NCBI GenBank assembly: GCA_031261425.1
Contig: JAISJR010000013.1
Location: forward strand, 1 to 64,000
DNA: 64,000 nt
Direction: 5' to 3'
DNA from: Planctomycetota bacterium
GTDB lineage: Bacteria; Planctomycetota; SZUA-567
Made by a program: the position numbers and the translations under genes. How positions within the stretch are numbered: position 1 is the first letter of the stretch; every line of letters starts with the position of its first letter. Positions 15,762-29,348 of this stretch are shown one piece after another. A model generated the notes under the pieces. It was not told the DNA's origin and did not search any database. It saw nothing but the letters and a program-made list of their open reading frames with translations.

Positions 15762-17735
15762 ATGAGTGCGCCGCGCCCAAAAAAAACGCGCTATCGCCGG
15801 CTGAAAATTATTTTTTTCGCCGTCGCTTTGTTGTCGGCGGCGGTCATCGGCGGCGCGACGGCGGCGCATCATAAATTTTCCGAAAATTTCGTTCACGATT
15901 ATCTCGAAAAAGAAATCTCCCGCCTGACCGCGCTCCATTGCCGTATCGGCGCGCTGAAATTATCCCTGCTCACCGGCGAATTAACGCTGACCGATTTGCA
16001 ATTGACCGAACGCGCGGCGTTACCCGCCGCGCCGCTCTTCACGCTGAAAAAACTCACGGCGCGCATCTCGTGGTTCGCGTCGCTGTTCACCGGCGGCGGA
16101 CGCGGCGAAATTACCGCCGACGGTTGGCGACTGCAAATTGTTCGTTATCCCAATTTCGCGGCGACGGTCGCGGACGCCGTCCCGACCGCCGAACCCGCGC
16201 CCGCGCCGACGCTGACCGATGTAACGGATTTTCGCCGGATTTCCCAGCGTTTGCGCGAACTGCCGTGGCGCGTGTGGCTCGACCGTTTCGCGCCGCTGAA
16301 ATACCTGAGCGGTTGTCGTCTGACCGGCGAGAACGGCGAAATTGTCTGGCGCGACGGCAACGGTTTTTTCGCCGACAGCGTGCTGTCCATTCCGCAATTC
16401 GTCGCCGAAAAACACGCGGCGCGGTTTTCTTTCGCGACGACGGCGAAACTTCACGCTCCGAATAATGACGGAACCGTCGATGACGGAACGTTGGAACTGA
16501 CCGCGTCCGCCGACCTGCATTCGCGCGGGCGGTGGTCTAATCTCAAAATGGACGCCGCGCTGACGAATTTTGATTTGCCGCAACTGTCGTTTTATTACGG
16601 TCTCGCTTACGGCTTTCAGGGCAACGCGCTGACGCTCGGTGCGCCGTTTTTCGGCGACATTCGTCTTGCCGGCGACAACGGCGGCGTCGCGTTAAGTTTT
16701 TCGTTGCGCACCGACCGGTTGTTGCGCGTTTTTCCGTTCGTCAAAGAACCGGCGCAAATGCCGGCGCTGACCGCCAACGGCGTCATCGACGCCAACGCGC
16801 GGGGCGAGTGGCAAATCAAACAATTGTCGTTGGAGGTCGGCAAATGGTTGACATTGCAGGCGACCGGCGGCGACCGCGACGGTTTGAATTTTCAATTTGC
16901 GATGACCCTCGACGATTTTTCGCGCAGTGAATTGGCGCGGCGGCTGAAAATGAGCATGAGCGGCAAAACCGCGTTGACGGTGCGCTCGCAGACCAGCGGC
17001 GACGACACGGTCGTGCGCGCGCGCTGGTCGGCGCAGGATTTAAGCGTCAATTCGGCGGACGAAAACACCGAGTGGACGGGCAATTTGACGGCGGCGCAAG
17101 CGGCGCTCGACGTTACGCACACCGGACTTGGCGCGCAAATCACCGCGCTGACCTTGGCGACCGGCGCGTTTGCAATGCGCGCCGCCGACCGGCGAAGCGG
17201 CGAGGACTTACTCCTGACGTTTCGCTCCGGCAAATTTGACGCAAACGTCGCGACGGTCTCGGTGGACGATTTCGCGTTAGGACAGCCGTCGTTTTCGCCG
17301 GTGCCGATGGTAACGATACCGGCGATTACGGTGCAAACGCTCGCCGAGCCGCCGTTCGCGGTGTCGTATGTGTTGCTCGACCGGATGAAAGTGAATTATC
17401 AGGAAAAACCGGCGACGACTTCGGCGGCGACGCAAGTGATGAAAGGGTTTTTCAGCAAGTTTCCCGTGACGAAGCCCAAAGTGGTGGAATTGGTGCGGCA
17501 GGCGGCGGCGGAAAAAGTTATGAACGCGATAGAAGCCGTGGTGAAAATGGTAACGGCGGCGGCGGCGGTCGCGCCGCCGGTAACGTTACGCATCGACCAC
17601 GGACAGGTTGACCTCTTGACGCCGGGCGAATACGGCGACGGAATGTCGCTACCGTTGGACCTCACCGTCCGCGACGTAACCGGCATCAGTTCCGAAGAAA
17701 TGACGCGGCAAATCGCGGCGACGATGGCGAATTGA
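15762..17735 (+). CDS. AsmA-like envelope protein, single membrane anchor
   Basis: A 657-residue protein with a basic N-terminus, one membrane helix (about 11-30) and a long periplasmic region rich in beta-strands with repeated L-x-L-x patterns. The start of the mature part (IGALKLSLLTGELTLTDLQL) is typical of AsmA/TamB/YhdP-like proteins, which carry lipids or support outer-membrane assembly. The assignment is by overall pattern. A proline-alanine linker lies near 145-155. It ends ten bases from the convergent end of the defence island, so it marks the island's left boundary. Confidence 0.6.
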   Translation: MSAPRPKKTRYRRLKIIFFAVALLSAAVIGGATAAHHKFSENFVHDYLEKEISRLTALHCRIGALKLSLLTGELTLTDLQLTERAALPAAPLFTLKKLTARISWFASLFTGGGRGEITADGWRLQIVRYPNFAATVADAVPTAEPAPAPTLTDVTDFRRISQRLRELPWRVWLDRFAPLKYLSGCRLTGENGEIVWRDGNGFFADSVLSIPQFVAEKHAARFSFATTAKLHAPNNDGTVDDGTLELTASADLHSRGRWSNLKMDAALTNFDLPQLSFYYGLAYGFQGNALTLGAPFFGDIRLAGDNGGVALSFSLRTDRLLRVFPFVKEPAQMPALTANGVIDANARGEWQIKQLSLEVGKWLTLQATGGDRDGLNFQFAMTLDDFSRSELARRLKMSMSGKTALTVRSQTSGDDTVVRARWSAQDLSVNSADENTEWTGNLTAAQAALDVTHTGLGAQITALTLATGAFAMRAADRRSGEDLLLTFRSGKFDANVATVSVDDFALGQPSFSPVPMVTIPAITVQTLAEPPFAVSYVLLDRMKVNYQEKPATTSAATQVMKGFFSKFPVTKPKVVELVRQAAAEKVMNAIEAVVKMVTAAAAVAPPVTLRIDHGQVDLLTPGEYGDGMSLPLDLTVRDVTGISSEEMTRQIAATMAN

Positions 17736-17745
17736 AAGGGAAAAA

Positions 17746-20700
17746 TCATTCCTTACGGTTTTTGCAATGTTTTAGAACAGGGCTATTGTTGATGTCGTTT
17801 CCCTTTACTCTCTGCCGTCTGTCAATCTTGTCGCGAATGACATCGACATTTATTCCAGGCGGTGTAGGCTTGAACGCGCCGCTCTTTTGAAGTGTGTACT
17901 CCTGTATCTGAAATTCACGCAGAGCCTGAACATCAATCTCTCCAACAAGTAACGCCTGATTTAGACCACCCTTGACCGCCACGAGGTTTCGCTCCTCGCT
18001 TCGCGTCGGTTGCGTTATCCGACTATCGCCATACTGCGAAGTGTTGACTTGAACAAAGTAGCAATGCAGGTCTCTCGCCAGCGATTCTACAATGTTCGAG
18101 AAATAATTAGTGTCGCTGTTATATTCGACAGCCACAACCATATCTGCCCACGACATAAACTCCGCACGGTCGGATATGGAAGTCAGTTCATAGCAACAGT
18201 AAACCGGGAAATAGCAGTCGCCCCAATGGTAAAGCGGACGCTTACCCTGTTCGGATACCGGGTTTGCCCTATAGCCTTCGATAAGGCGTCGTTCTTCAGG
18301 AGCGTAATGCTTTTTTAACTGGAAGAATATCGCCGCTGTCGGTATCGACTTATAATACTTAAATGGCAAAATCACAGCGGTGTAGTTGTAAACATCTGTC
18401 CTCGAATGATTCTGTTCATCGGTATGCTTGACAACAATATGCTCCACGCCGGTTATGATAGACAATCTATCACGTGCGGCTTTTGTCGCCAAGGCGGGAA
18501 GCCATTCAAACGGCACAAAGCTCTCCGGCAGAACAAGCATATCAGCATTTTCCTTTATCGCTGCGTTCACCAGATTTGCCAACGCTCTATACCTCGCGTA
18601 CTTTCTGTTCAGCTTTCTGCCTTTGAGAACATTTTCGAGGTCAGATACCCTTGCGACGTTTACATTCGCTATAGCGACTTTCATTTTCTCCGGCATTTTT
18701 CCGTTGACGTATACCACGCCGCCATCTACATCGTTCGATACTTCAATCGGTATGTCGGTCATACCGTGTCTAATCTCATCAACATAACCCTCCGGTGACG
18801 CGCTGACTGATACACAGCGTGAACAAATAGATTTAAGTAACCTCGCCATTGCTATATCCTGTGCTTGCCTAAAATATGGCAACAGCTCATATCTCGCTTC
18901 TGCGTCGGCACTATCACAAAGATATTGAAACCCGGATGCAAATTCCGTGAAATTAACATCCGCTTGTTCATCTGGACAAGCCAAAATCTCGTTAGGCACT
19001 GCCATAACGTATTTGTTGCTCATACGTGTTTCTATGTATTCTCCACACAAGCCTACGCAGAGTTCAAAATCACAAATTGCGTTCTTTATTTTACGAGCGT
19101 CCTTTCCCCACAAAAGCGAAAGTGTACGGTTCAGCGTCGCTGTTAAATGCAGATATAGATTGTCACGAGTAGCGGAAGCGTCAATATCTTTTCCCTTTTT
19201 CTCGCCATCTATTATTTCTATTTCAATGACAGACAAGTCTTTAATCGCCGATTTAATGCGTTTTACAAACTTAATGAAGCCGTCATAGTTTTTGTCGGTG
19301 ATGAATATCTCCAATACGCGCTCCCAAAGAGTATAATTATCTATCAACTCGCGGTCATTGAACATCCTGCCTATAATACGAGTGAATTCCTTTATACTTC
19401 CGTCGTCAACAAGACTGCTCACGACGCGATATTTGCCGAGGAATTTTGAAAGCTCATATTTGTCCATCGAGATTTCCTTAACACCGCGAAGTTTGTTAAT
19501 CGTAGCGTCGTTTTCGAGCTTATAGAACTGACTGAAGTCGTCCTGCGAAAAAGCCTCCCCAACTTCCGGCATAAAACGGAACTCGCTGACATTCTCCAAA
19601 ATTTCTTGCTTGAATTTGCTGATAAGCGCAGTAGAGTTGTTTTCGGCAAATAATGCAATAATCCGTGTTTTTTCAGATTGAAATTCAAATACGCTGCCCT
19701 CTGATAAGCAGAATTCAGCGTTTACGCGATACAATATATCGATAGAATCTGTTTTGTCAGAATCAAGATCTGAGTCTGTGTTTAGTGTATTGGGAGCATT
19801 GCTTTTGATTTCGCGTTCTACGAAGAAAGGGGCGCTTTTGCGCCGCCCGTCGCCCAGATAGTAATCTATCACATCATTTTTGACCAATGCCCCTTCGCGG
19901 GCTTTATTGTATATTTCACTGCCTTTTTCTATTTTCTCAACAATGATAATGTCGTCTACGTAACGACCATAATAAGCAGGATTCCAGAAGTCAAGAATGC
20001 CTTTGTCAAATTTAGCCAAGCACCAATTCGACAGCACAGGGGATGGCAAGAAGCCAATCGGCAGAACATTCCCGTTATGTTTTATACCCGCCGCTTGCAA
20101 AACCTCGGTATACTTTTTGATAATAGAAAATATCGCCTTATGCAGTACGATGTCCTTCTTCTCGGCATCTCTGAGTAGGTCACTGCTATTGAACGCTTCG
20201 TCCGTTATCCCCGTGTTGTAGTAGTATTTCTTCAAATCAAGCGTAAGGATAAGTACATCGTGCTTTTTTGCGAGCAAATCCTCTGCGCACGAAAGACCTC
20301 CGTCGCGCCATAGTGAATATTGAGCAAAGTATGGCTCAAACAACGCCGGGGAATTCTTTATTTCGTCACTATCGTCGTTCCAAATGAGTTTTGTTCTAAG
20401 CCTGTTTCCGAAAGCATTTTGATAGCAATCATTATCTATCTTCTTGCCAAAAGCCATAACCCACAACACGCCAAGGATATGACCGCACACGCTCATATCA
20501 ATAAAATATTGAAGTTCCTCAACAATCGGCTTATCTTTAGGATTGCCGACGCTAATTACTATACCATCGTTGTTCTTTGCCTTGCACATCTTTTTAGGAA
20601 ATGACATAGCCGAAATGGATGAGAGAATCTCCGATATTAAGGCGGAACCCCCATCTAAAGTCGCATTATCATATGCGTCAGCGATTTCGGCCAGTTTTAT

Positions 20701-20823
20701 CTCAAAGTCTCCACGCGCTTCAAATGCGACAACCGCATCTCTGAGTGGCAAGGTCGTTTTATCGAAGTAAACACTCGCTTTGAGTTTGCGAAACGCTATC
20801 TTAACGCGTTCAAGTGTAGTCAT
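17746..20823 (-). CDS. drt1: defence-associated reverse transcriptase fused to a nitrilase domain (DRT type 1, UG1)
   Basis: A 1025-residue two-domain protein. The reverse transcriptase part (about 90-470) has motif A LTLDLKKYYYN with D196, a motif B-like LPIGFLPSPVLSN (254-266), and motif C YVDD at 288-291. The C-terminal part (about 713-970) is a carbon-nitrogen hydrolase with the Glu-Lys-Cys set: E767 in LVLPESF, K838 in QLKKHY and C877 in PVYCCYEL. This order matches DRT1/UG1 anti-phage proteins, where both activities are thought to be required. Start: GAGG eight bases before the ATG. It lies 13 bases after hsdR on the same strand. G+C is clearly lower than in neighbouring core genes, which indicates transfer. 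Confidence 0.9.
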   Translation of the reverse strand: MTTLERVKIAFRKLKASVYFDKTTLPLRDAVVAFEARGDFEIKLAEIADAYDNATLDGGSALISEILSSISAMSFPKKMCKAKNNDGIVISVGNPKDKPIVEELQYFIDMSVCGHILGVLWVMAFGKKIDNDCYQNAFGNRLRTKLIWNDDSDEIKNSPALFEPYFAQYSLWRDGGLSCAEDLLAKKHDVLILTLDLKKYYYNTGITDEAFNSSDLLRDAEKKDIVLHKAIFSIIKKYTEVLQAAGIKHNGNVLPIGFLPSPVLSNWCLAKFDKGILDFWNPAYYGRYVDDIIIVEKIEKGSEIYNKAREGALVKNDVIDYYLGDGRRKSAPFFVEREIKSNAPNTLNTDSDLDSDKTDSIDILYRVNAEFCLSEGSVFEFQSEKTRIIALFAENNSTALISKFKQEILENVSEFRFMPEVGEAFSQDDFSQFYKLENDATINKLRGVKEISMDKYELSKFLGKYRVVSSLVDDGSIKEFTRIIGRMFNDRELIDNYTLWERVLEIFITDKNYDGFIKFVKRIKSAIKDLSVIEIEIIDGEKKGKDIDASATRDNLYLHLTATLNRTLSLLWGKDARKIKNAICDFELCVGLCGEYIETRMSNKYVMAVPNEILACPDEQADVNFTEFASGFQYLCDSADAEARYELLPYFRQAQDIAMARLLKSICSRCVSVSASPEGYVDEIRHGMTDIPIEVSNDVDGGVVYVNGKMPEKMKVAIANVNVARVSDLENVLKGRKLNRKYARYRALANLVNAAIKENADMLVLPESFVPFEWLPALATKAARDRLSIITGVEHIVVKHTDEQNHSRTDVYNYTAVILPFKYYKSIPTAAIFFQLKKHYAPEERRLIEGYRANPVSEQGKRPLYHWGDCYFPVYCCYELTSISDRAEFMSWADMVVAVEYNSDTNYFSNIVESLARDLHCYFVQVNTSQYGDSRITQPTRSEERNLVAVKGGLNQALLVGEIDVQALREFQIQEYTLQKSGAFKPTPPGINVDVIRDKIDRRQRVKGNDINNSPVLKHCKNRKE

Positions 20824-20836
20824 ATATTATCCTCAC

Positions 20837-23788
20837 TTATACTATTGCTTGACCTTGAAACGCCTCGCCCTCGGCATTATACGTTACGCTGAACACCATA
20901 TCCGCAAGCCACTTTTTGAAAGACGGGTTGTCGCCCCACTGCTTGAGAATCTCCATATTGTCTTCCATAATCGCGAAAACTACACGTTGCAGGGCGGCAT
21001 CGCTTTCCATGCGGGCGTTCTGCTTATCAGAGTTGCGCATAGCATTTTGATACTTGGTATCTCTTGACACCATGCCGGGGATGCGACTAATCTGCGCTCG
21101 CACGTTGTCTGCGTCCTTCCAGTCGATGTTGCCAAACAAGTCGTTGAATGTAGACAGGATATTGGTTAGCAAATCAAGCTCAATCGGTGGTTTGCCGCCA
21201 ATACCGCCCGTCGGAACAGGGTCTAACTCGGCGTTTGCGTCCTCAAGCTGAATAGACATCTGCGAACGCGCTTCCGCTCTATAGCTGTCGAGGTCGATTG
21301 CTTCCAAGATACCCGCCGACAAATCGTCCTCTTTGGGGGACGGCATCTTCGGCAGGAGCAAGTTTAAGAAAATGGACAGCTTCTCCCACTCGGCGTTTCC
21401 ATAGGGCAGTATCGCACCGAGAAAGCCATAAGTACGCACAAAGCCTTTAGCGGAGGACTTGAACTCGACCTGCCCCTCCTCGTCAAGTGCTTTGTAATTG
21501 TTCTCGCACACGTCCAATATCGGGTCGAGCTTATCCCGCTCCGCGCCGCTCAAATACAGGTCAACAAAGCCGTCAACGTGATACTGCGTGTAGACTTCGT
21601 ATTTTTCCATCGCAGAAATCAAGTCGTAGAGCTTGTTGGGGTCGGTTTCACCCGACAAAATCGTCGTGCGGTAGTAGCGCGAGAACGCCGTCTGAATGTC
21701 ATCGGATTCGTTGGCGAAGTCCAAAACGAACGTATCAACTTTGCTCTCTTTGGCGCGATTCAGACGCGATAGCGTTTGCACCGCCTTGATGTCGGTCAGG
21801 ATTTTATCAACATACATCGTGTGCAGTAGCGGCTCGTCGTAACCCGTTTGGAACTTGTCCGCCACAACCAAAATGCGGTATGGTTCCTCTTGAAACATAT
21901 CCTCAATATCTTTAGTGGGGAAGCCGTTAATCAGGCTCTCGTTGAGCGTTTTGCCGCCATAATCTTTATCACCGGAGAACGCGACGATAGCTTTATACGG
22001 GCTTTTGCGGGCTTCAAGCGCGGAGCAAATCGCGTAATAATATTCAATCGCCCGTTCGATACTGCTCGTGACCACCATTGCCCGCGCCTTGCCGCCGATT
22101 TTATGACACACGTTGTCGTGGAAATGCTCCACCATAATGCCAGCCTTGGTAGCGATAGCGAACGGGTCGCTCTCCACGAACGCGCGGAGCTTCTTCTGCG
22201 CCTTTTTCTTGTCGTATTCGGGGTTGCCGGTCACGGTCTTGACTAATTTATAGTAACTCTTTATCGGCGTGTAGAATTTCAGCACGTCGAGAATAAAGCC
22301 CTCTTGAATGGCTTGCTTCATCGAGTAGTTGTCAAACGGTTCGTGCTTCACCGCTCCGTCAACCTGCGGAACAGGAACACCGAACATCTCCAGCGTTTTA
22401 TTCTTCGGCGTGGCGGTAAAGGCGAAGTAACTGGCGTTGGTGAGCAGCTTGCGCCCCTCAACAAGCGCATTGATTTTATCCTCTGTGTCAGCGTTGGGGT
22501 CGAACTCGCCGCCGAGAGCGACGTTCATCTTAGCGGACATATCGCCGCTTTGACTGCTGTGCGCCTCGTCGATGATTATCGCGAACTTGTTGTTTTTGTG
22601 CGCCGTGCCGATGTCATCGAGGATAAACGGGAACTTATGCACCGTCGTAATGATAATCTTCTTTCCGTTGGTGATAGCCTCCCGCAAGTCGCCGGAGCGT
22701 TCCGCCCACGCGACGGTTGACTGCACCTGCATAAACTGCCTAATCGTGTCGCGGATTTGCTTGTCGAGGTTCACGCGGTCGGTAACGACGATAACCGAAT
22801 TCACGACGCTTTCGCCGTTTACCTCAAGCCCCACAAGCTGATGCGCAAGCCACGCGATGCTGTTCGACTTGCCGCTGCCCGCGCTGTGCTGTATCAAATA
22901 TCGCTTGCCCACGCCGCTTTCGCGAACGTCCGCGAGCAGCGACCTCACCACTTTAAGTTGATGATAGCGCGGAAAAATCTGCTTCTCGGTCTTTTTCTTC
23001 GTTTTCTTGTTCTCCTCAACCACCACTTGCGCGTAATTCTCGATGATGTTGGCGAGGCTGTATTTCGTCAGAATTTCTTTCCAGAGATAGTCCGTCATAA
23101 GCCCGTCCGGGTTCGGTGGGTTGCCCGCGCCGTCGTTGTAGCCTTTATCGAACGGCAAAAACCACGAGTCTTTCCCCGCGAGTTTCGTGCAAAACTTCAC
23201 CCTTGCGTCGTCCACGGCGAAATGCACCATACACCGCTTGAAGCTGAACAGTAGTTCTCGCGGGTCGCGGTCGGTTTTGTACTGGTACACCGCGTCGTCA
23301 ACGTCCTGCTTGGTGAGTTGGTTCTTGAGTTCGCACGTTATAACGGGCAGGCCGTTTATAAAAATCGCGAAGTCAAGAGCGAGTTTCTGATTGTCGCGGC
23401 TATACTGCAACTGGCGCGTCACGCTGAAAATGTTCTTCTCAAACATAACTTTCGCCACCGGGTTCTTCTCGGAGGGGGTCATATAGAACATCACGAGGTT
23501 TGCGGGGTAAATTTTCACGCCGCTGCGAAGCACGTCAATAATGCCGCGCTTGGCGATTTCACCCACGAGCCGCGACAAAAACTGCGTCCGCTTGATGTCG
23601 CTGTCGCGAACACCGAGCGACTCCATCGCCTTGGGCTGCGTATCCCACAGGAAGCGGAACAGGCGCGTTTCGTCGATGGCGTACTCTTTGCTGTAATCGG
23701 CGTTTGTGCCTTGCTCGTAGCCGTTTTGCTCGACCAGATAATTTACGATAAGGCTTTCAAGCCCGGATTCACGTGTGTTAGTCGGCAT
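20837..23788 (-). CDS. hsdR: Type I restriction endonuclease subunit HsdR
   Basis: A 983-residue restriction and translocation subunit. The N-terminal nuclease has the PD-(D/E)xK set D139 with E153-x-K155 in TCELKN; the superfamily 2 motor has Walker A HSAGSGKS (301-308), DEAH (407-410) and FTATP. It cleaves unmodified DNA remote from the site read by HsdS. ATG 23788 was chosen by homology (MPTNTRESGLESLIV); it overlaps the hsdS stop by 11 bases, so translation is coupled. All key residues are present, so it should be active. Confidence 0.95.
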   Translation of the reverse strand: MPTNTRESGLESLIVNYLVEQNGYEQGTNADYSKEYAIDETRLFRFLWDTQPKAMESLGVRDSDIKRTQFLSRLVGEIAKRGIIDVLRSGVKIYPANLVMFYMTPSEKNPVAKVMFEKNIFSVTRQLQYSRDNQKLALDFAIFINGLPVITCELKNQLTKQDVDDAVYQYKTDRDPRELLFSFKRCMVHFAVDDARVKFCTKLAGKDSWFLPFDKGYNDGAGNPPNPDGLMTDYLWKEILTKYSLANIIENYAQVVVEENKKTKKKTEKQIFPRYHQLKVVRSLLADVRESGVGKRYLIQHSAGSGKSNSIAWLAHQLVGLEVNGESVVNSVIVVTDRVNLDKQIRDTIRQFMQVQSTVAWAERSGDLREAITNGKKIIITTVHKFPFILDDIGTAHKNNKFAIIIDEAHSSQSGDMSAKMNVALGGEFDPNADTEDKINALVEGRKLLTNASYFAFTATPKNKTLEMFGVPVPQVDGAVKHEPFDNYSMKQAIQEGFILDVLKFYTPIKSYYKLVKTVTGNPEYDKKKAQKKLRAFVESDPFAIATKAGIMVEHFHDNVCHKIGGKARAMVVTSSIERAIEYYYAICSALEARKSPYKAIVAFSGDKDYGGKTLNESLINGFPTKDIEDMFQEEPYRILVVADKFQTGYDEPLLHTMYVDKILTDIKAVQTLSRLNRAKESKVDTFVLDFANESDDIQTAFSRYYRTTILSGETDPNKLYDLISAMEKYEVYTQYHVDGFVDLYLSGAERDKLDPILDVCENNYKALDEEGQVEFKSSAKGFVRTYGFLGAILPYGNAEWEKLSIFLNLLLPKMPSPKEDDLSAGILEAIDLDSYRAEARSQMSIQLEDANAELDPVPTGGIGGKPPIELDLLTNILSTFNDLFGNIDWKDADNVRAQISRIPGMVSRDTKYQNAMRNSDKQNARMESDAALQRVVFAIMEDNMEILKQWGDNPSFKKWLADMVFSVTYNAEGEAFQGQAIV

Positions 23789-25019
23789 TTTCGTCGCCCT
23801 CCGCTTCTTCTTCAATAATTTCTTCGTCTGCTGTTTCCTCCACGGCTTCATACTCCGGCACGACCACGCCTCGCACATCGAGCTTGCCTGTGACAACGTC
23901 AGAGATAAGGCGGGTGCGGTATTCGTTGAGTAAGGAAACCTGATTTTCAAGTTTACTTATCGCATATTCAATTTGTTCAAGTTTCAAATCTAGACAATCT
24001 GAGATTTGATGTTGTTCATTGAGCGACGGCAATACAATATCAATATCTCCCGCTTTACCCCAACTCCTAAAGTCGCTTGTATTTTGACGGACACCATTTG
24101 AAATAGCTTTGTATAATTTTCTAAATGCAAGCATTTGGAGATAGTACATAATAAATCGTTTATCTTCTTTACTATCGCAAACGTGAGCAACGGTGGTGCA
24201 TTTACCATCGTGTTTCGACATGGCAATTGCGCCATGCCAAGTGTCCATTCCGTGTATCATCAAATCACCATTAAGAACACCTTGATAAATATCATCATTC
24301 TCTGAAATTACTCCTATTTTTTTATTACCTCGAAAAAATGTTTTTCCGCTGTTTGAACAAATAACAACTTCGTCAGTATACTTGTAAGACCGATTTAGTT
24401 TATGCACTACACGTTTTAGCCTTACTTGTGTTCCATGAACAGAAAGTACGGCTTCGGTAATTTCTGCTCGCTTCTGCTCCTGCAAGAGCGCGACCTGCCG
24501 CCGCTTGGCATTGACGAGCTTGTTTATCCGCGACACTTTCCAATCGAGATAGCGCACGATTTGGTCTTGCTCGTCGCGGGGAGGGAGTGGAAGATAAATG
24601 GACTTCATCTCGGCATATCGTGTCGTCCATAAATCCGCAACAATGCCTCTGCCATTGCGATAGTATTCTTCTATGAAGTTATAGCTCTTCAGAAGATAGT
24701 GCCAGTACCGCCCGTTAGCTTCGTCGCGTGGCGTAAGCACTATATTTATTAGCGAAACAGAGCCGTCAAGCTCCGATACGCCGCTTGAACCACGTCTGTC
24801 AGAGCGACTGTTAATAGCAAAATCACCTTTGCGGACAAGTTTGCGATTATCTCCAGCGTTTGTCTTCGCCACATTAGCAATTTGAGGTATTGTACCGCCC
24901 TTGCTTACAGAAAGCGGCGCAAAATCCGTGTCGGAAACTTTTTCGCGGCGTTCAGCGAAAAGGTCATTAACCTTTCGCGTTTCCCAACGCTCCGGCAATA
25001 CACCATACCACTCACTCAT
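23778..25019 (-). CDS. hsdS: Type I restriction-modification specificity subunit HsdS
   Basis: A 413-residue protein with two target-recognition domains separated and followed by coiled-coil spacers (about 165-195 and 355-375). The first repeat includes PLPPRDEQDQIVRYLDWKV and the second LPSLNEQHQISDCLDLKL, so the half-subunits are paralogous in layout. The second recognition domain (about 24000-24420) is markedly more A+T-rich than the rest, which suggests domain exchange. The tail is very acidic. The start ATG overlaps the fic stop as ATGA. The DNA target cannot be deduced. Confidence 0.93.
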   Translation of the reverse strand: MSEWYGVLPERWETRKVNDLFAERREKVSDTDFAPLSVSKGGTIPQIANVAKTNAGDNRKLVRKGDFAINSRSDRRGSSGVSELDGSVSLINIVLTPRDEANGRYWHYLLKSYNFIEEYYRNGRGIVADLWTTRYAEMKSIYLPLPPRDEQDQIVRYLDWKVSRINKLVNAKRRQVALLQEQKRAEITEAVLSVHGTQVRLKRVVHKLNRSYKYTDEVVICSNSGKTFFRGNKKIGVISENDDIYQGVLNGDLMIHGMDTWHGAIAMSKHDGKCTTVAHVCDSKEDKRFIMYYLQMLAFRKLYKAISNGVRQNTSDFRSWGKAGDIDIVLPSLNEQHQISDCLDLKLEQIEYAISKLENQVSLLNEYRTRLISDVVTGKLDVRGVVVPEYEAVEETADEEIIEEEAEGDENAD

Positions 25020-26020
25020 GACAGCACCTCCCTGCTTTTTCTGCGGTACCTCTGTCCGCGAGCGTTCGGCGTTTCGGGCAGCGTCATTTCAATCAAACCC
25101 GCTTCGAGCGCGGGGTGCAGATAGTTCTTACGGAACGTCGGGCGGTGCTTCAAATCGAGTCGTGCCATAAGCTCGGCGGCTGACAGCGTTTTTGCGCCTA
25201 AAACGTCAAGCAGACGTTTTACTTGGTCGCTTTGTTGGTCGCTATCTTGGTCGTTTGCGGCGTAGGTTTCAAGCGTATCCCAAACGGCGCGAAGCATAAA
25301 CGCGATAAACTCCGTGCAATCGCCCGCGTCGTTTGATGTGCCGAGCGCGGCGTAATACTCCTGCTGGCGCTCTCGCACGATTGTCTCGACAGGCAACCAC
25401 GCGAAAATCTCTTTCCACTCGTGCAATAACAGCGTTTGCCACATACGCCCCATTCGCCCGTTGCCGTCCGCGAACGGGTGAATGATTTCGAACTCAAAAT
25501 GGAACACGCAGCTCTTTACGAGCGGGTGAACGGGTGCGTCCTTCGTCCATAAAATCAAATCCGCGATAAGACCGCTCACGTTATCGGCGGGCGGCGCGAT
25601 ATGAACGGCTTCCGAGCCGCGAAATACGCCGACATTACCGGAACGAAACTGCCCCGGTGTTTTCACCAAGTCTTTCATAAGAATCTGATGCGCGGTCAGC
25701 AAGTCCATAACGTCATACGGGTCGAACTCAAGCATTTTGTTATACGCGGCGAAAGCGTTCTCGACCTCGCAAATATCCTGCGGCGGCGCAAGTACGCGCT
25801 TGCCGTCGATAATCGCGGTCACTTGTTCGAGCGAAAGCGAGTTGTTCTCAATCGCAAGCGACGAATGGATTGAAAGTATGCGGTTTGCCCGGCGCAGCTT
25901 CGGGCTTTGCTCCATACCGCTCTGTATGGTCAGCACATCAACACGCGCCGCAATGTTCGCGACGAGCGTTAAAATTTCATCGGTAATTGTGTAGTTCGGT
26001 TTATATAGAAAATCGTTCAC
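25016..26020 (-). CDS. Fic-domain protein embedded in the hsd operon
   Basis: A 334-residue Fic protein with the complete catalytic motif HPFADGNGRMGR (181-192), predicting AMP transfer to a hydroxyl of a target protein. A class II inhibitory motif SLAIEN (54-59) lies N-terminal, so the enzyme should be self-inhibited until triggered. The C-terminal third (about 265-334) looks like a winged-helix domain. The GTG start overlaps the hsdM stop as GTGA and the stop overlaps hsdS as ATGA. Both junctions share GGAGGTGCTGTC, and both HsdM and Fic end in EVLS, which suggests insertion as a cassette. The target is unknown. Confidence 0.92.
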   Translation of the reverse strand: MNDFLYKPNYTITDEILTLVANIAARVDVLTIQSGMEQSPKLRRANRILSIHSSLAIENNSLSLEQVTAIIDGKRVLAPPQDICEVENAFAAYNKMLEFDPYDVMDLLTAHQILMKDLVKTPGQFRSGNVGVFRGSEAVHIAPPADNVSGLIADLILWTKDAPVHPLVKSCVFHFEFEIIHPFADGNGRMGRMWQTLLLHEWKEIFAWLPVETIVRERQQEYYAALGTSNDAGDCTEFIAFMLRAVWDTLETYAANDQDSDQQSDQVKRLLDVLGAKTLSAAELMARLDLKHRPTFRKNYLHPALEAGLIEMTLPETPNARGQRYRRKSREVLS

Positions 26021-27774
26021 GACAGCACCTCCTCAAGCAATCCCTCGGTTTCCTGTTCCAAGGCGCGGATGTCCGCCGCGATTTCCGCGAGGTCGCGAAG
26101 CTGCGCGGGCTTGTAGAAATGCTTTGTGAAGCTGATTTCGTAGCCAATTTGCGTCTTTTTCGGGTCAACTTTCGCTTTCGGCGTGTAGGGCAGAACCTCT
26201 TTCGCGATGAACGCGTCAATGCCGCCGGGGTAGTCCAGCGGTATTTGCTCGGTGTCCTTATCCGATCCGTTTACGACGGTCACTTTATAGTAGCCGAACG
26301 CGCTGTTCGGGAAGATTTTGCTGTACTCGTTCTCCTCGAAGTTCAGGAACAACGCCATAATTTGAGTGCGAATGTCGGCTGTGAACTCGCAGTTCTTCTT
26401 GCCGAGATTTTTGCGAAGCGGCGATTTAAGCGCGGTGGCGTCGATAAGCTGTATCTTGCCGCGACGTTTCGCATCTTTGCGGTTCGACAGCACCCAAATA
26501 AACGTGCCGATGCCCGTGTTGTAGAACATATTTTCCGGCAGGGCGATTATCGCCTCCACAAGGTCGCGCTCAATGAGATAACGGCGGGCGTTGCTCTCGC
26601 CTTGCCCCGCGTCGCCCGTGAACAGACTGGAACCGTTGTGGACTTCGGCAATGCGGCTGCCAAGCTCTGTTGTTTCTTTCATCTTGCTGACATTGTTCAG
26701 CAGGAACAGCAGTTGACCGTCGCTTGTGCGCGGTATCATAGAAAAGTCGGGGTTGCTGTCAAAGGTAGTCACAAAGCGCGTGTCCTGTATGCCCTTTTTC
26801 CCGCCAAGCCTGTCCGCGTCAATCTTCCACGACTTGCCGTAAGGCGGGTTCGAGAGCATAAAGTCAAACTGCCGCGTCGGAAATCCGTCGCTCGACAGCG
26901 TTGAACCAAACGCGACGTTATCGGCTTCCGCGCCCTCGCCTTTGAGCAGCATATCGGCTTTGGTAATGGCGTAGGTTTCAGGGTTAATCTCCTGCCCGAA
27001 GAGGTGAATGGATACGTCGCGTCCGCTCTTTTCGGCAAGGGAGAGCAGTCGGTCTTGACTTACCGTAAGCATACCTCCCGTGCCGCTTGCGCCGTCATAA
27101 ACAGAGTATGTACTGTCTTTGATTTGGTCGGCAATCGGCAGGAATATGAGGTCTGCCATAAGCTCCACAACATCACGCGGCGTGAAATGCTCTCCGGCTT
27201 CCTCGTTGTTTTCCTCATTGAAGCGGCGGATAAGCTCCTCGAAAATAACGCCCATCGTATGGTTGTCGAGCGCAGGTATGCGAACGCCGCCTTGGTCATC
27301 GAGAATGTCAATGGGGCTAAGGTTTATCGTTGGCGACACGAACTTCTCAATCACCGCGCCGAGAATGTCCGCGTCAATCATCGTATCTATCTGGTTGCGG
27401 AACTTGAATTTGTCGAGTATCTCCTGCACGTTGGGCGAAAAACCGTCCAAGTAGGCGATAAAGTCGGTTTTGAGTTTTTGCTGGCTTGCGCGGCTTGTAA
27501 GGTCGCGTAAACAAAACGGCGACGAGTTGCAGAACGACTGCCCCGCGACGTTACATAGAGCTTCCGTCTGGTTGCTCACGCTTGCCGCGTCGAGCTTCAC
27601 TTTCATATCAAGCACGGCGGGCTTTGTATCTTCAAGCACCGCGTCCAAGCGGCGTATAACCGTGAGCGGCAAAATGACATCGCGGTACTTGCCCCGCACG
27701 TAAATGTCGCGTAGGCAATCGTCGGCGATGCCCCAGATAAAGCTGACTATTTGGTTGTGGATTTGTGCGTCCAT
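26017..27774 (-). CDS. hsdM: Type I restriction-modification DNA methyltransferase HsdM
   Basis: A 585-residue N6-adenine methyltransferase subunit. The N-terminal helical domain (MDAQIHNQIVSFIWG onward) precedes the SAM-binding motif YDGASGTGGML (226-236) and the catalytic NPPY (309-312). ATG 27774 has GGAGGG eight bases upstream; a longer frame starting at 27810 has no support. It is the first gene of the hsdM-fic-hsdS-hsdR-drt1 operon. With HsdS it protects host sites. Confidence 0.95.
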   Translation of the reverse strand: MDAQIHNQIVSFIWGIADDCLRDIYVRGKYRDVILPLTVIRRLDAVLEDTKPAVLDMKVKLDAASVSNQTEALCNVAGQSFCNSSPFCLRDLTSRASQQKLKTDFIAYLDGFSPNVQEILDKFKFRNQIDTMIDADILGAVIEKFVSPTINLSPIDILDDQGGVRIPALDNHTMGVIFEELIRRFNEENNEEAGEHFTPRDVVELMADLIFLPIADQIKDSTYSVYDGASGTGGMLTVSQDRLLSLAEKSGRDVSIHLFGQEINPETYAITKADMLLKGEGAEADNVAFGSTLSSDGFPTRQFDFMLSNPPYGKSWKIDADRLGGKKGIQDTRFVTTFDSNPDFSMIPRTSDGQLLFLLNNVSKMKETTELGSRIAEVHNGSSLFTGDAGQGESNARRYLIERDLVEAIIALPENMFYNTGIGTFIWVLSNRKDAKRRGKIQLIDATALKSPLRKNLGKKNCEFTADIRTQIMALFLNFEENEYSKIFPNSAFGYYKVTVVNGSDKDTEQIPLDYPGGIDAFIAKEVLPYTPKAKVDPKKTQIGYEISFTKHFYKPAQLRDLAEIAADIRALEQETEGLLEEVLS

Positions 27775-27848
27775 TAGCTTGTCCCTCCATCGCCTTAGTG
27801 ATCGGCTCACGAGAGATGTTCACTAATCACGCTATGATAATTACTTGG

Positions 27849-28014
27849 TCACTGATTTGCTGTTTGCGTGAGCTGTTCCTCTATCGTCAGTTTAGACTTT
27901 CTGCCGTCCTGCGCGTGTTTGTTCATATATTCGGGCAATCAAAGTCTCAACCATCGCGGAAAACGTTTCTATTTTTACGCCAATAATTTGCTTGAAGTCA
28001 ACATCACTCAGTTG
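27849..28014 (-). pseudogene. decayed N-terminal remnant of an IS5-like (DDE_Tnp_4) transposase
   Basis: On the minus strand one frame reads LSDVDFKQIIGVKIETFSAM and continues to GRQKV-stop; shifting one base gives GRKSKLTIEEQLTQTANQ-stop. Joined, these match the start of IS5-group transposases, where a helix-turn-helix domain (KLTIEEQL...) follows. The remnant is frameshifted and truncated, with no catalytic domain. The gap 27775-28136 holds otherwise only this remnant and the hsdM leader. Confidence 0.65.
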
Positions 28015-28136
28015 TCATGTCTTTTCATAATGATTAATTTTTTCAACCCTCTATAACTCTCTCCTATAACTCTACACATCCCCAGAAATTTGTCAATCGC
28101 TTTTTTTGATTGGTTTCCGAGGATGCTTATTCATCT

Positions 28137-29348
28137 CTAATTCAGCGGAAAACTGCTCCGCAAATAATCGCCGGCGGGCTGAATTTCGCGCGGCGGCGGA
28201 TAATGATAAAACGTCGAATTCGGCGACTGCGGCTGCGGCGCGGACGGCGTGAGAAGCGGCGTGGACAGCAAGACCGCCTCGGCGGTCGTCGGATGCGGCG
28301 AAACCGACGAAGCCGGCGGCATACGCGGCTCGCGCGGCATCGCCGGCGCGGACGCGACCGACGGCGAAGCCGGTTCCGACGGCGCGGGTAGCGAGGGAAT
28401 TTCGGCGGCGTAATCGTTAATTTCTTTACCGGCGGTCGCGGTGGAATTTTCCGATAATTCCGGCAGGACGAAACTTTTCGGCACCGTAATCAAAATCTGG
28501 CGCGTGAGATTGTATAAACCGGCGCACAATTCCGCGCAGTCGCGGTCGTTCGCCGCCTCCCACAACAAATCGTCCGGCAAATTGGACAAATCAAACCACG
28601 TCGCCGCGACCACGCCGAGAAAACGCCGCGTCTCGTAATAACGCAACTGTTTTTGCCCCGCGCTTTCCGCGTCGCGCCAATCCGCGGCGTGAAACCAAAT
28701 TTTCAACGCCCGGCACAACCGTCCGACGCCGGTGTTTTCGGGCGCGAGATGGCGCCACTCGCGCAACGGCACGGCGCGGACGGCGGCGGCGACCGTTTCG
28801 TCGTCGGCGTTGAGCGCGGCGATATTCAGCAACGCGCGTTTGTCGCGTTCCTGCCCGCCGATGATGTTCACCAATAAACTGTAAGCGGCGCGCGCGACGG
28901 CGTCGGTGTCCGGGTCGGCTTCGACCAGCCGCGCGGCGTGCATCGCCGCATAGACGCCGCTGGGCGACGGCTCCGTGTAAGCCAGCGCGACGGCGCTCGC
29001 CATCTGCAAGGCGCGCGGCACACCGCCCAGCGGCGCGCGCCCGTCGAGTTCGCGGAACAGCGCGGCGACGCGCTCAATCGCCGGGTCTTTGAGTTCGAGA
29101 ATCGCCGGCACGCGACCGGCGTAGTAGCCGCCTTCCTGCACGAACATCCGGCACAGCGCGCTCAAATAGGCGCGCTGGCGGAGGAAGTCCTTTTTCAGCG
29201 GTCCGACGGGATTGTAACAGAGGAGGGCAATCAGCGCGGCTTTATGGCGGGTGCGGTCGAAAGTGTTTTCGCTCGCGCCCGCCGGCGGTTCGCCCGCCGC
29301 GGTCAACAGCGCGAGAATTAAGGATAAAATATAAAATCGCGGGCGCAT
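28137..29348 (-). CDS. secreted protein of unknown function with proline-rich tail
   Basis: A 403-residue protein with an N-terminal signal peptide (about 1-25) and an alpha-helical, alanine-rich body (30-285). The C-terminal 100 residues are low-complexity and rich in P, S, A and T, ending in a short YHYPPPREI segment. Probably periplasmic or surface-exposed. No enzyme motif was recognised; an EADPDTDA segment near 144 is only loosely reminiscent of ADP-ribosylglycohydrolase metal motifs and is not enough for a call. High G+C third positions fit a native gene. Confidence 0.7.
   Translation of the reverse strand: MRPRFYILSLILALLTAAGEPPAGASENTFDRTRHKAALIALLCYNPVGPLKKDFLRQRAYLSALCRMFVQEGGYYAGRVPAILELKDPAIERVAALFRELDGRAPLGGVPRALQMASAVALAYTEPSPSGVYAAMHAARLVEADPDTDAVARAAYSLLVNIIGGQERDKRALLNIAALNADDETVAAAVRAVPLREWRHLAPENTGVGRLCRALKIWFHAADWRDAESAGQKQLRYYETRRFLGVVAATWFDLSNLPDDLLWEAANDRDCAELCAGLYNLTRQILITVPKSFVLPELSENSTATAGKEINDYAAEIPSLPAPSEPASPSVASAPAMPREPRMPPASSVSPHPTTAEAVLLSTPLLTPSAPQPQSPNSTFYHYPPPREIQPAGDYLRSSFPLN

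Follow-up and report, generated by a model that had tools for sequence, protein, structure and literature searches.

Organization of the five-gene array

The window, a stretch of 64,000 nucleotides from a contig of an uncultured Planctomycetota bacterium, carries a Type I restriction-modification (R-M) system together with a fic gene and a reverse transcriptase (RT)-nitrilase gene (Table 1). All five reading frames are open and complete on the minus strand, and their coordinates and spacing agree with those of the initial annotation. hsdM and fic overlap by 4 bases (GTGA, 26017-26020), fic and hsdS likewise by 4 bases (ATGA, 25016-25019), and hsdS and hsdR by 11 nt (23778-23788), while hsdR and the RT gene are separated by a gap of 13 nt (20824-20836). 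Shine-Dalgarno-like stretches ahead of the start codons are strong for hsdM, fic and hsdS, and weaker for the RT gene (AGGA).

Table 1. Features of the locus and gene contexts of UG5-type reverse transcriptases
Feature or locus	Position	Strand	Description
Genomic island	17737-28137		five genes and leader only; synteny with the genus-mate G141 ends at both edges
Promoter-like site TTGACA-16-TAGAGT	28069-28096	-	about 300 bp upstream of hsdM; consensus scan only
hsdM	26017-27774	-	Type I DNA methyltransferase subunit, 585 aa
16-bp direct repeat, copy 1	26017-26032	-	GGAGGTGCTGTCGTGA; hsdM/fic junction
fic	25016-26020	-	Fic AMP-transferase of class II (self-inhibited), carrying a Fic-like_C domain; 334 aa, GTG start
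16-bp direct repeat, copy 2	25016-25031	-	GGAGGTGCTGTCATGA; fic/hsdS junction
hsdS	23778-25019	-	specificity subunit, 413 aa
hsdR	20837-23788	-	Type I restriction subunit, 983 aa
UG5-type RT-nitrilase	17746-20823	-	1025 aa
UG5 context, window			HsdR, then UG5 after 13 bp
UG5 context, L003 (Clostridium MAG)			two ORFs of a split HsdR that is of another type, then UG5 after 18 bp
UG5 context, L038	87-3885		C-terminal part of a PglX-like methylase at the contig start, then UG5 after 7 bp
UG5 context, L039	6750-11678		kwaA-kwaB (Kiwa), then UG5 on the same strand; the gap is 44 bp for the ORF as called and about 104 bp if the conserved ATG is the start
UG5 context, L021	8274-17799	-	Wadjet jetABCD, then UG5 after 49 bp; RT broken by stop codons
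UG5 context, L019	7275-10525		N-terminal remnant (97 aa) of an hsdM from the same family as the window's HsdM, 56 bp ahead of UG5
UG5 context, L040	345-3411		RecQ adjoining UG5; RT broken
UG5 context, L020			genes of unknown kind upstream of UG5
UG5 context, L022			housekeeping genes upstream of UG5; contig end
UG5 context, L002, L011 (Sinorhizobium plasmid) and L012 (E. coli)			UG5 alone or divergent

Terminator-like sites were about as frequent in the region as in shuffled sequence (22 versus 21.4 expected), and none was located before the RT gene. Promoter-like matches inside genes numbered 28 with both strands counted, compared with 11.8 expected, and the consensus scan gave none on the strand of the RT gene in the last 300 bp before it. 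Nothing in these scans speaks for an internal promoter or terminator ahead of the RT gene. Since consensus scans are weak evidence, we infer co-transcription from the spacing, by which the five genes form one tight array resembling a transcription unit. No Rfam RNA family was detected in positions 17000-28600.

Restriction-modification genes

HsdM contains the Pfam domains HsdM_N and N6_Mtase as well as an NPPY motif and matches the PADLOC model MTase_I with 766 bits. HsdS is recognized by Methylase_S and by Specificity_I (290 bits). HsdR combines HSDR_N, SWI2_SNF2 and a T1R_D3-like domain and is homologous to HsdR of EcoR124I; its score of 215 bits against TIGR00348 lies under the cut-off of 284.55. 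Together, the three genes amount to a full Type I system, with its motifs intact and all members in one operon.

In 20 regions with HsdR relatives from the same phylum, M, S and R were commonly interspersed with additional genes. Accessory genes of many kinds, among them DUF262, macro domain and AbiE genes, were found within related R-M operons. In L067:7822-13402 (G069), an HsdR 62% identical to that of the window is followed by a 303-aa gene and then, as second gene after hsdR, by a UG36 reverse transcriptase, with all three genes joined by 4-bp overlaps. Here a different defense RT takes a similar place in an R-M operon. The RT genes abiA and abiK have also been reported in R-M operons (PMC8934634). 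As in the window, a defense RT adjoins R-M genes in these cases, but AbiA and AbiK belong to other RT groups and lack a nitrilase.

The Fic protein and its flanking repeats

Fic carries the Pfam domains Fic and Fic-like_C, the core HPFADGNGRMGR, and upstream of this core the sequence SLAIEN, the motif by which Fic proteins of class II inhibit themselves. Both the HPFx(D/E)GNGRxxR core and the N-terminal (S/T)xxxE(G/N) signature of this class are present in the alignment to FICD and 4RGL, the latter being the closest solved structure (E=2.4e-110, residues 5-328). The initial description of a self-inhibited Fic embedded between hsdM and hsdS was therefore borne out.

The fic gene is flanked exactly by two 16-bp direct repeats which include both start codons. 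The pattern GGAGGTGCTGTC(G/A)TGA has two matches in the 64 kb, compared with 0.01 expected, although part of the repeat consists of the Shine-Dalgarno stretch and the stop/start overlap and is constrained in any case. The arrangement looks like a cassette that was set into the hsdM/hsdS junction via short homology, with the repeats as a possible cassette boundary.

Among seven Fic relatives on plasmids that were examined, four sit within Type I R-M operons (Shewanella L028 and L030, Vibrio L029, Azotobacter L033). In these operons, as in the window, hsdM, hsdS and hsdR are lined up on one strand together with a fic homologue. They differ in that the fic homologue is located between hsdS and hsdR, while in the window fic lies between hsdM and hsdS and hsdR is followed by an RT gene. 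Other related Fics, such as those on Klebsiella and Rahnella plasmids, are encoded away from R-M operons. Fic is probably an autonomous self-inhibited toxin-like add-on and not a sensor for the RT.

Identity of the reverse transcriptase-nitrilase

The RT, recognized as RVT_1 by Pfam, had initially been labelled DRT1. Its best match, however, is the PADLOC profile RT_UG5-nitrilase with 743.5 bits over the full length (residues 2-1004), as opposed to 63 bits with the Drt1a (UG1) profile. Two true Drt1a genes included as controls (L025 and L026) behaved in the opposite manner, with 1,325 and 1,315 bits on Drt1a and 144 and 132 bits on UG5. Consequently, the protein has to be assigned to UG5. An RT plus nitrilase architecture and collinearity with DRT1 9YFD are shared with true DRT1 (UG1), but given these scores such an identity is extremely improbable, and at the level of profile scores it was ruled out. 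In the region L025:1-10086, the control gene (1,325 bits) and a Type I R-M operon point away from each other on either side of a small XRE-like gene.

As judged from alignments, the UG5 RT is a distant, collinear relative of DRT1 in which the catalytic residues are kept. D196, Y288-V-D290-D291 and the nitrilase residues E767, K837, E844 and C877 were invariant in nine UG5 proteins, and a profile of these nine proteins was collinear with 9YFD in the RT and nitrilase parts (hmmsearch, E=5.9e-28), C877 aligning with C1116 of DRT1. Both proteins thus have in common the two domains, the catalytic cysteine and a conserved C-terminal tail. In contrast, the UG5 RT is about 200 aa shorter, falls into another profile group, and no counterpart of the DRT1 priming serine was identified. 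According to a published report, other class 3 DRTs do not conserve this serine, S402 (PMC13275509), and no conserved Ser, Thr or Tyr was present in the loop after YVDD among the nine UG5 proteins. An AlphaFold2 model built from three sequences gave no usable structure (pLDDT 32). A relative of the RT was not found in viral contigs and phage records.

Extent of the island and origin of its parts

Similarity to the flanks in the genus-mate G141 (88% and 91%) ends at positions 17736 and 28138, so that the island of 10.4 kb consists entirely of these genes and the leader. The two flanks lie on different contigs of G141, and the comparison defines edges rather than a precise insertion or a clean empty site. 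No match to the RT or to HsdR was found in the G141 assembly, which is 84% complete.

The nearest RT relatives found were encoded by a Coriobacteriales MAG (63%) and a Clostridium MAG (65%), compared with 32% for a relative from the phylum of the window (G311). The GC content of the RT gene is 43.9% (47% at third positions) versus 52-54% (65-70%) for hsdM, fic and hsdR. This lower GC content suggests another origin. Together with the nearest relatives in other phyla, it makes a separate arrival of the RT from elsewhere more likely than long co-adaptation.

Two minor features were noted in and next to the island. An IS5-like transposase remnant suspected by eye in the hsdM leader (27850-28020) was discarded, as neither a Pfam transposase nor a plasmid match was obtained. 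Outside the island, 114 bp near the 3'-end of a DUF748-like gene (17575-17688) are inverted relative to the copy of the genus-mate (L097:8345-8565); the reading frames are open in both, and an inversion, a template switch or an assembly artefact may account for this.

Genomic neighborhoods of UG5 genes

With the RT as the sole criterion for choosing UG5 loci, 12 readable upstream contexts were obtained including the window; the fragmented copies of G088 (L023 and L024) were left out of the count. In 5 of the 12 contexts UG5 directly follows a recognized defense gene on the same strand within about 105 bp, or in 6 of 12 if the hsdM remnant is included, a frequency that may still reflect ordinary packing of defense islands. 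The five genes directly ahead of UG5 encode two unrelated HsdRs, a PglX-like protein, KwaB and JetD. The locus with the hsdM remnant looks like a decayed R-M operon. RecQ helicase genes are located directly beside UG5 RTs in two Clostridia-side genomes (L040:345-3411 and L003:6270-11392).

Other UG5 RT-nitrilases share with that of the window the full-length match, the RT and nitrilase domains and the catalytic residues, but stand alone or follow other systems, whereas the window's gene sits behind an R-M operon with Fic. The solitary cases (L002, L011, L012) imply that the RT is not dependent on R-M. The E. coli member is present in 253 of 5,426 genomes; its context was read in L012 only, where it lies beside AbiE genes. 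Neither the remaining readable UG5 loci nor the 20 regions with HsdR relatives showed the five-gene order. A literature search for RTs together with R-M, Kiwa and Wadjet gave no match (strict query, partial coverage).

Functional interpretation

DRT1 synthesizes DNA in a template-free, protein-primed manner and forms dormant filaments with an occluded nitrilase; it acts by abortive infection, for which the active sites of both RT and nitrilase are required (PMC13275509). As UG5 keeps the relevant parts of DRT1, including the conserved C-terminal tail, our best guess for the window's enzyme is a mechanism along similar lines. We favor, with a probability of roughly 60%, a stacked defense operon in which restriction acts first, an autoinhibited Fic is an add-on, and the RT-nitrilase serves as an abortive back-up. 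One transcript, probably starting near 28.07 kb, would cover all five genes. The Type I R-M system would be the first line, cutting unmodified phage DNA. The class II Fic inserted at the hsdM/hsdS junction most likely AMPylates a host target once its inhibitory helix is displaced. By homology to DRT1, the UG5 enzyme would produce template-free, protein-primed DNA and form a dormant, nitrilase-competent oligomer. On phage replication its nitrilase activity would be released and the cell stopped, providing an abortive back-up when restriction fails. Co-transcription, activity and the abortive outcome are inferred.

This interpretation is supported by the short spacing (-4, -4, -11, +13) with no terminator-like site before the RT, by island edges coinciding with the operon plus leader, by the intact catalytic residues and the collinearity with 9YFD, and by the recurrence of UG5 behind defense operons, of UG36 after an HsdR, and, on four plasmids, of fic homologues within R-M operons. 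Arguing against it are the UG5 members standing alone, the reported lack of conservation of S402, the UG5 loop after YVDD with no conserved Ser, Thr or Tyr, and the deviating GC content of the RT gene. The Fic genes within R-M operons and the UG36 and extra genes in related operons identify both additions as instances of a known habit. While the components and the habit of adding defense genes to R-M operons are known, the five-gene combination is new.

A tighter coupling is conceivable, in which the R-M complex would keep Fic and/or the UG5 RT silent, and these would be set off once a phage anti-restriction protein knocks out the complex. The precedent is PrrC of EcoprrI: its gene lies within a Type IC operon, the R-M enzyme sequesters it, and T4 Stp sets it free (PMC3874165, PMC12707154). 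As in the window, a Type I R-M operon here houses a self-toxic accessory gene (PMC3874165); PrrC, however, is an anticodon nuclease, whereas the window encodes Fic and an RT-nitrilase, whose sequestration is hypothetical. By the same analogy (PMC3874165), Fic could conceivably act as the trip-wire proposed in the initial annotation. The position of a self-inhibited Fic between hsdM and hsdS and the occurrence of UG5 after HsdR in two unrelated R-M types would fit such guarding. The presence of UG5 behind Kiwa, Wadjet and PglX-like genes, as well as alone, makes a specific HsdR partner unlikely, and the related Fics outside R-M operons also speak against this model, which we regard as improbable.

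Slightly less improbable, but still unlikely, is plain packing of a defense island, i.e. independent head-to-tail modules without functional coupling and possibly with separate promoters. The composition and nearest relatives of the RT, which are unlike those of the R-M genes, the variable neighbor order, and the many kinds of accessory genes in related R-M operons would be expected from packing. It accounts less well for the spacing of 4 to 13 bp, for island edges that coincide with the five genes, and for the repeated tail position of UG5 at short gaps behind unrelated systems. The stacked defense operon remains the preferred reading. The interpretation proposed at the outset is partly borne out but too specific. 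Layered control in the sense of a co-evolved five-gene system is not supported, as no relative examined shows the order and Fic and the RT look separately acquired. A weaker form stands: UG5 is repeatedly the last cistron behind a primary defense operon, which makes back-up by a co-expressed abortive module plausible.

What deserves follow-up is the repeated placement of UG5 as last cistron. As a tentative and rather doubtful generalization, UG5 RT-nitrilases could be plug-in tail effectors, a generic abortive back-up co-expressed as last cistron of a primary defense operon and adding a second, suicidal layer to Type I R-M, Kiwa, Wadjet and PglX-like systems. If so, one gene family would link several unrelated defense systems, and the nitrilase mechanism of DRT1 would extend to UG5, a family for which no experimental report was found. 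The view is testable by asking whether a UG5 gene contributes to defense only once the system ahead of it has been overcome.
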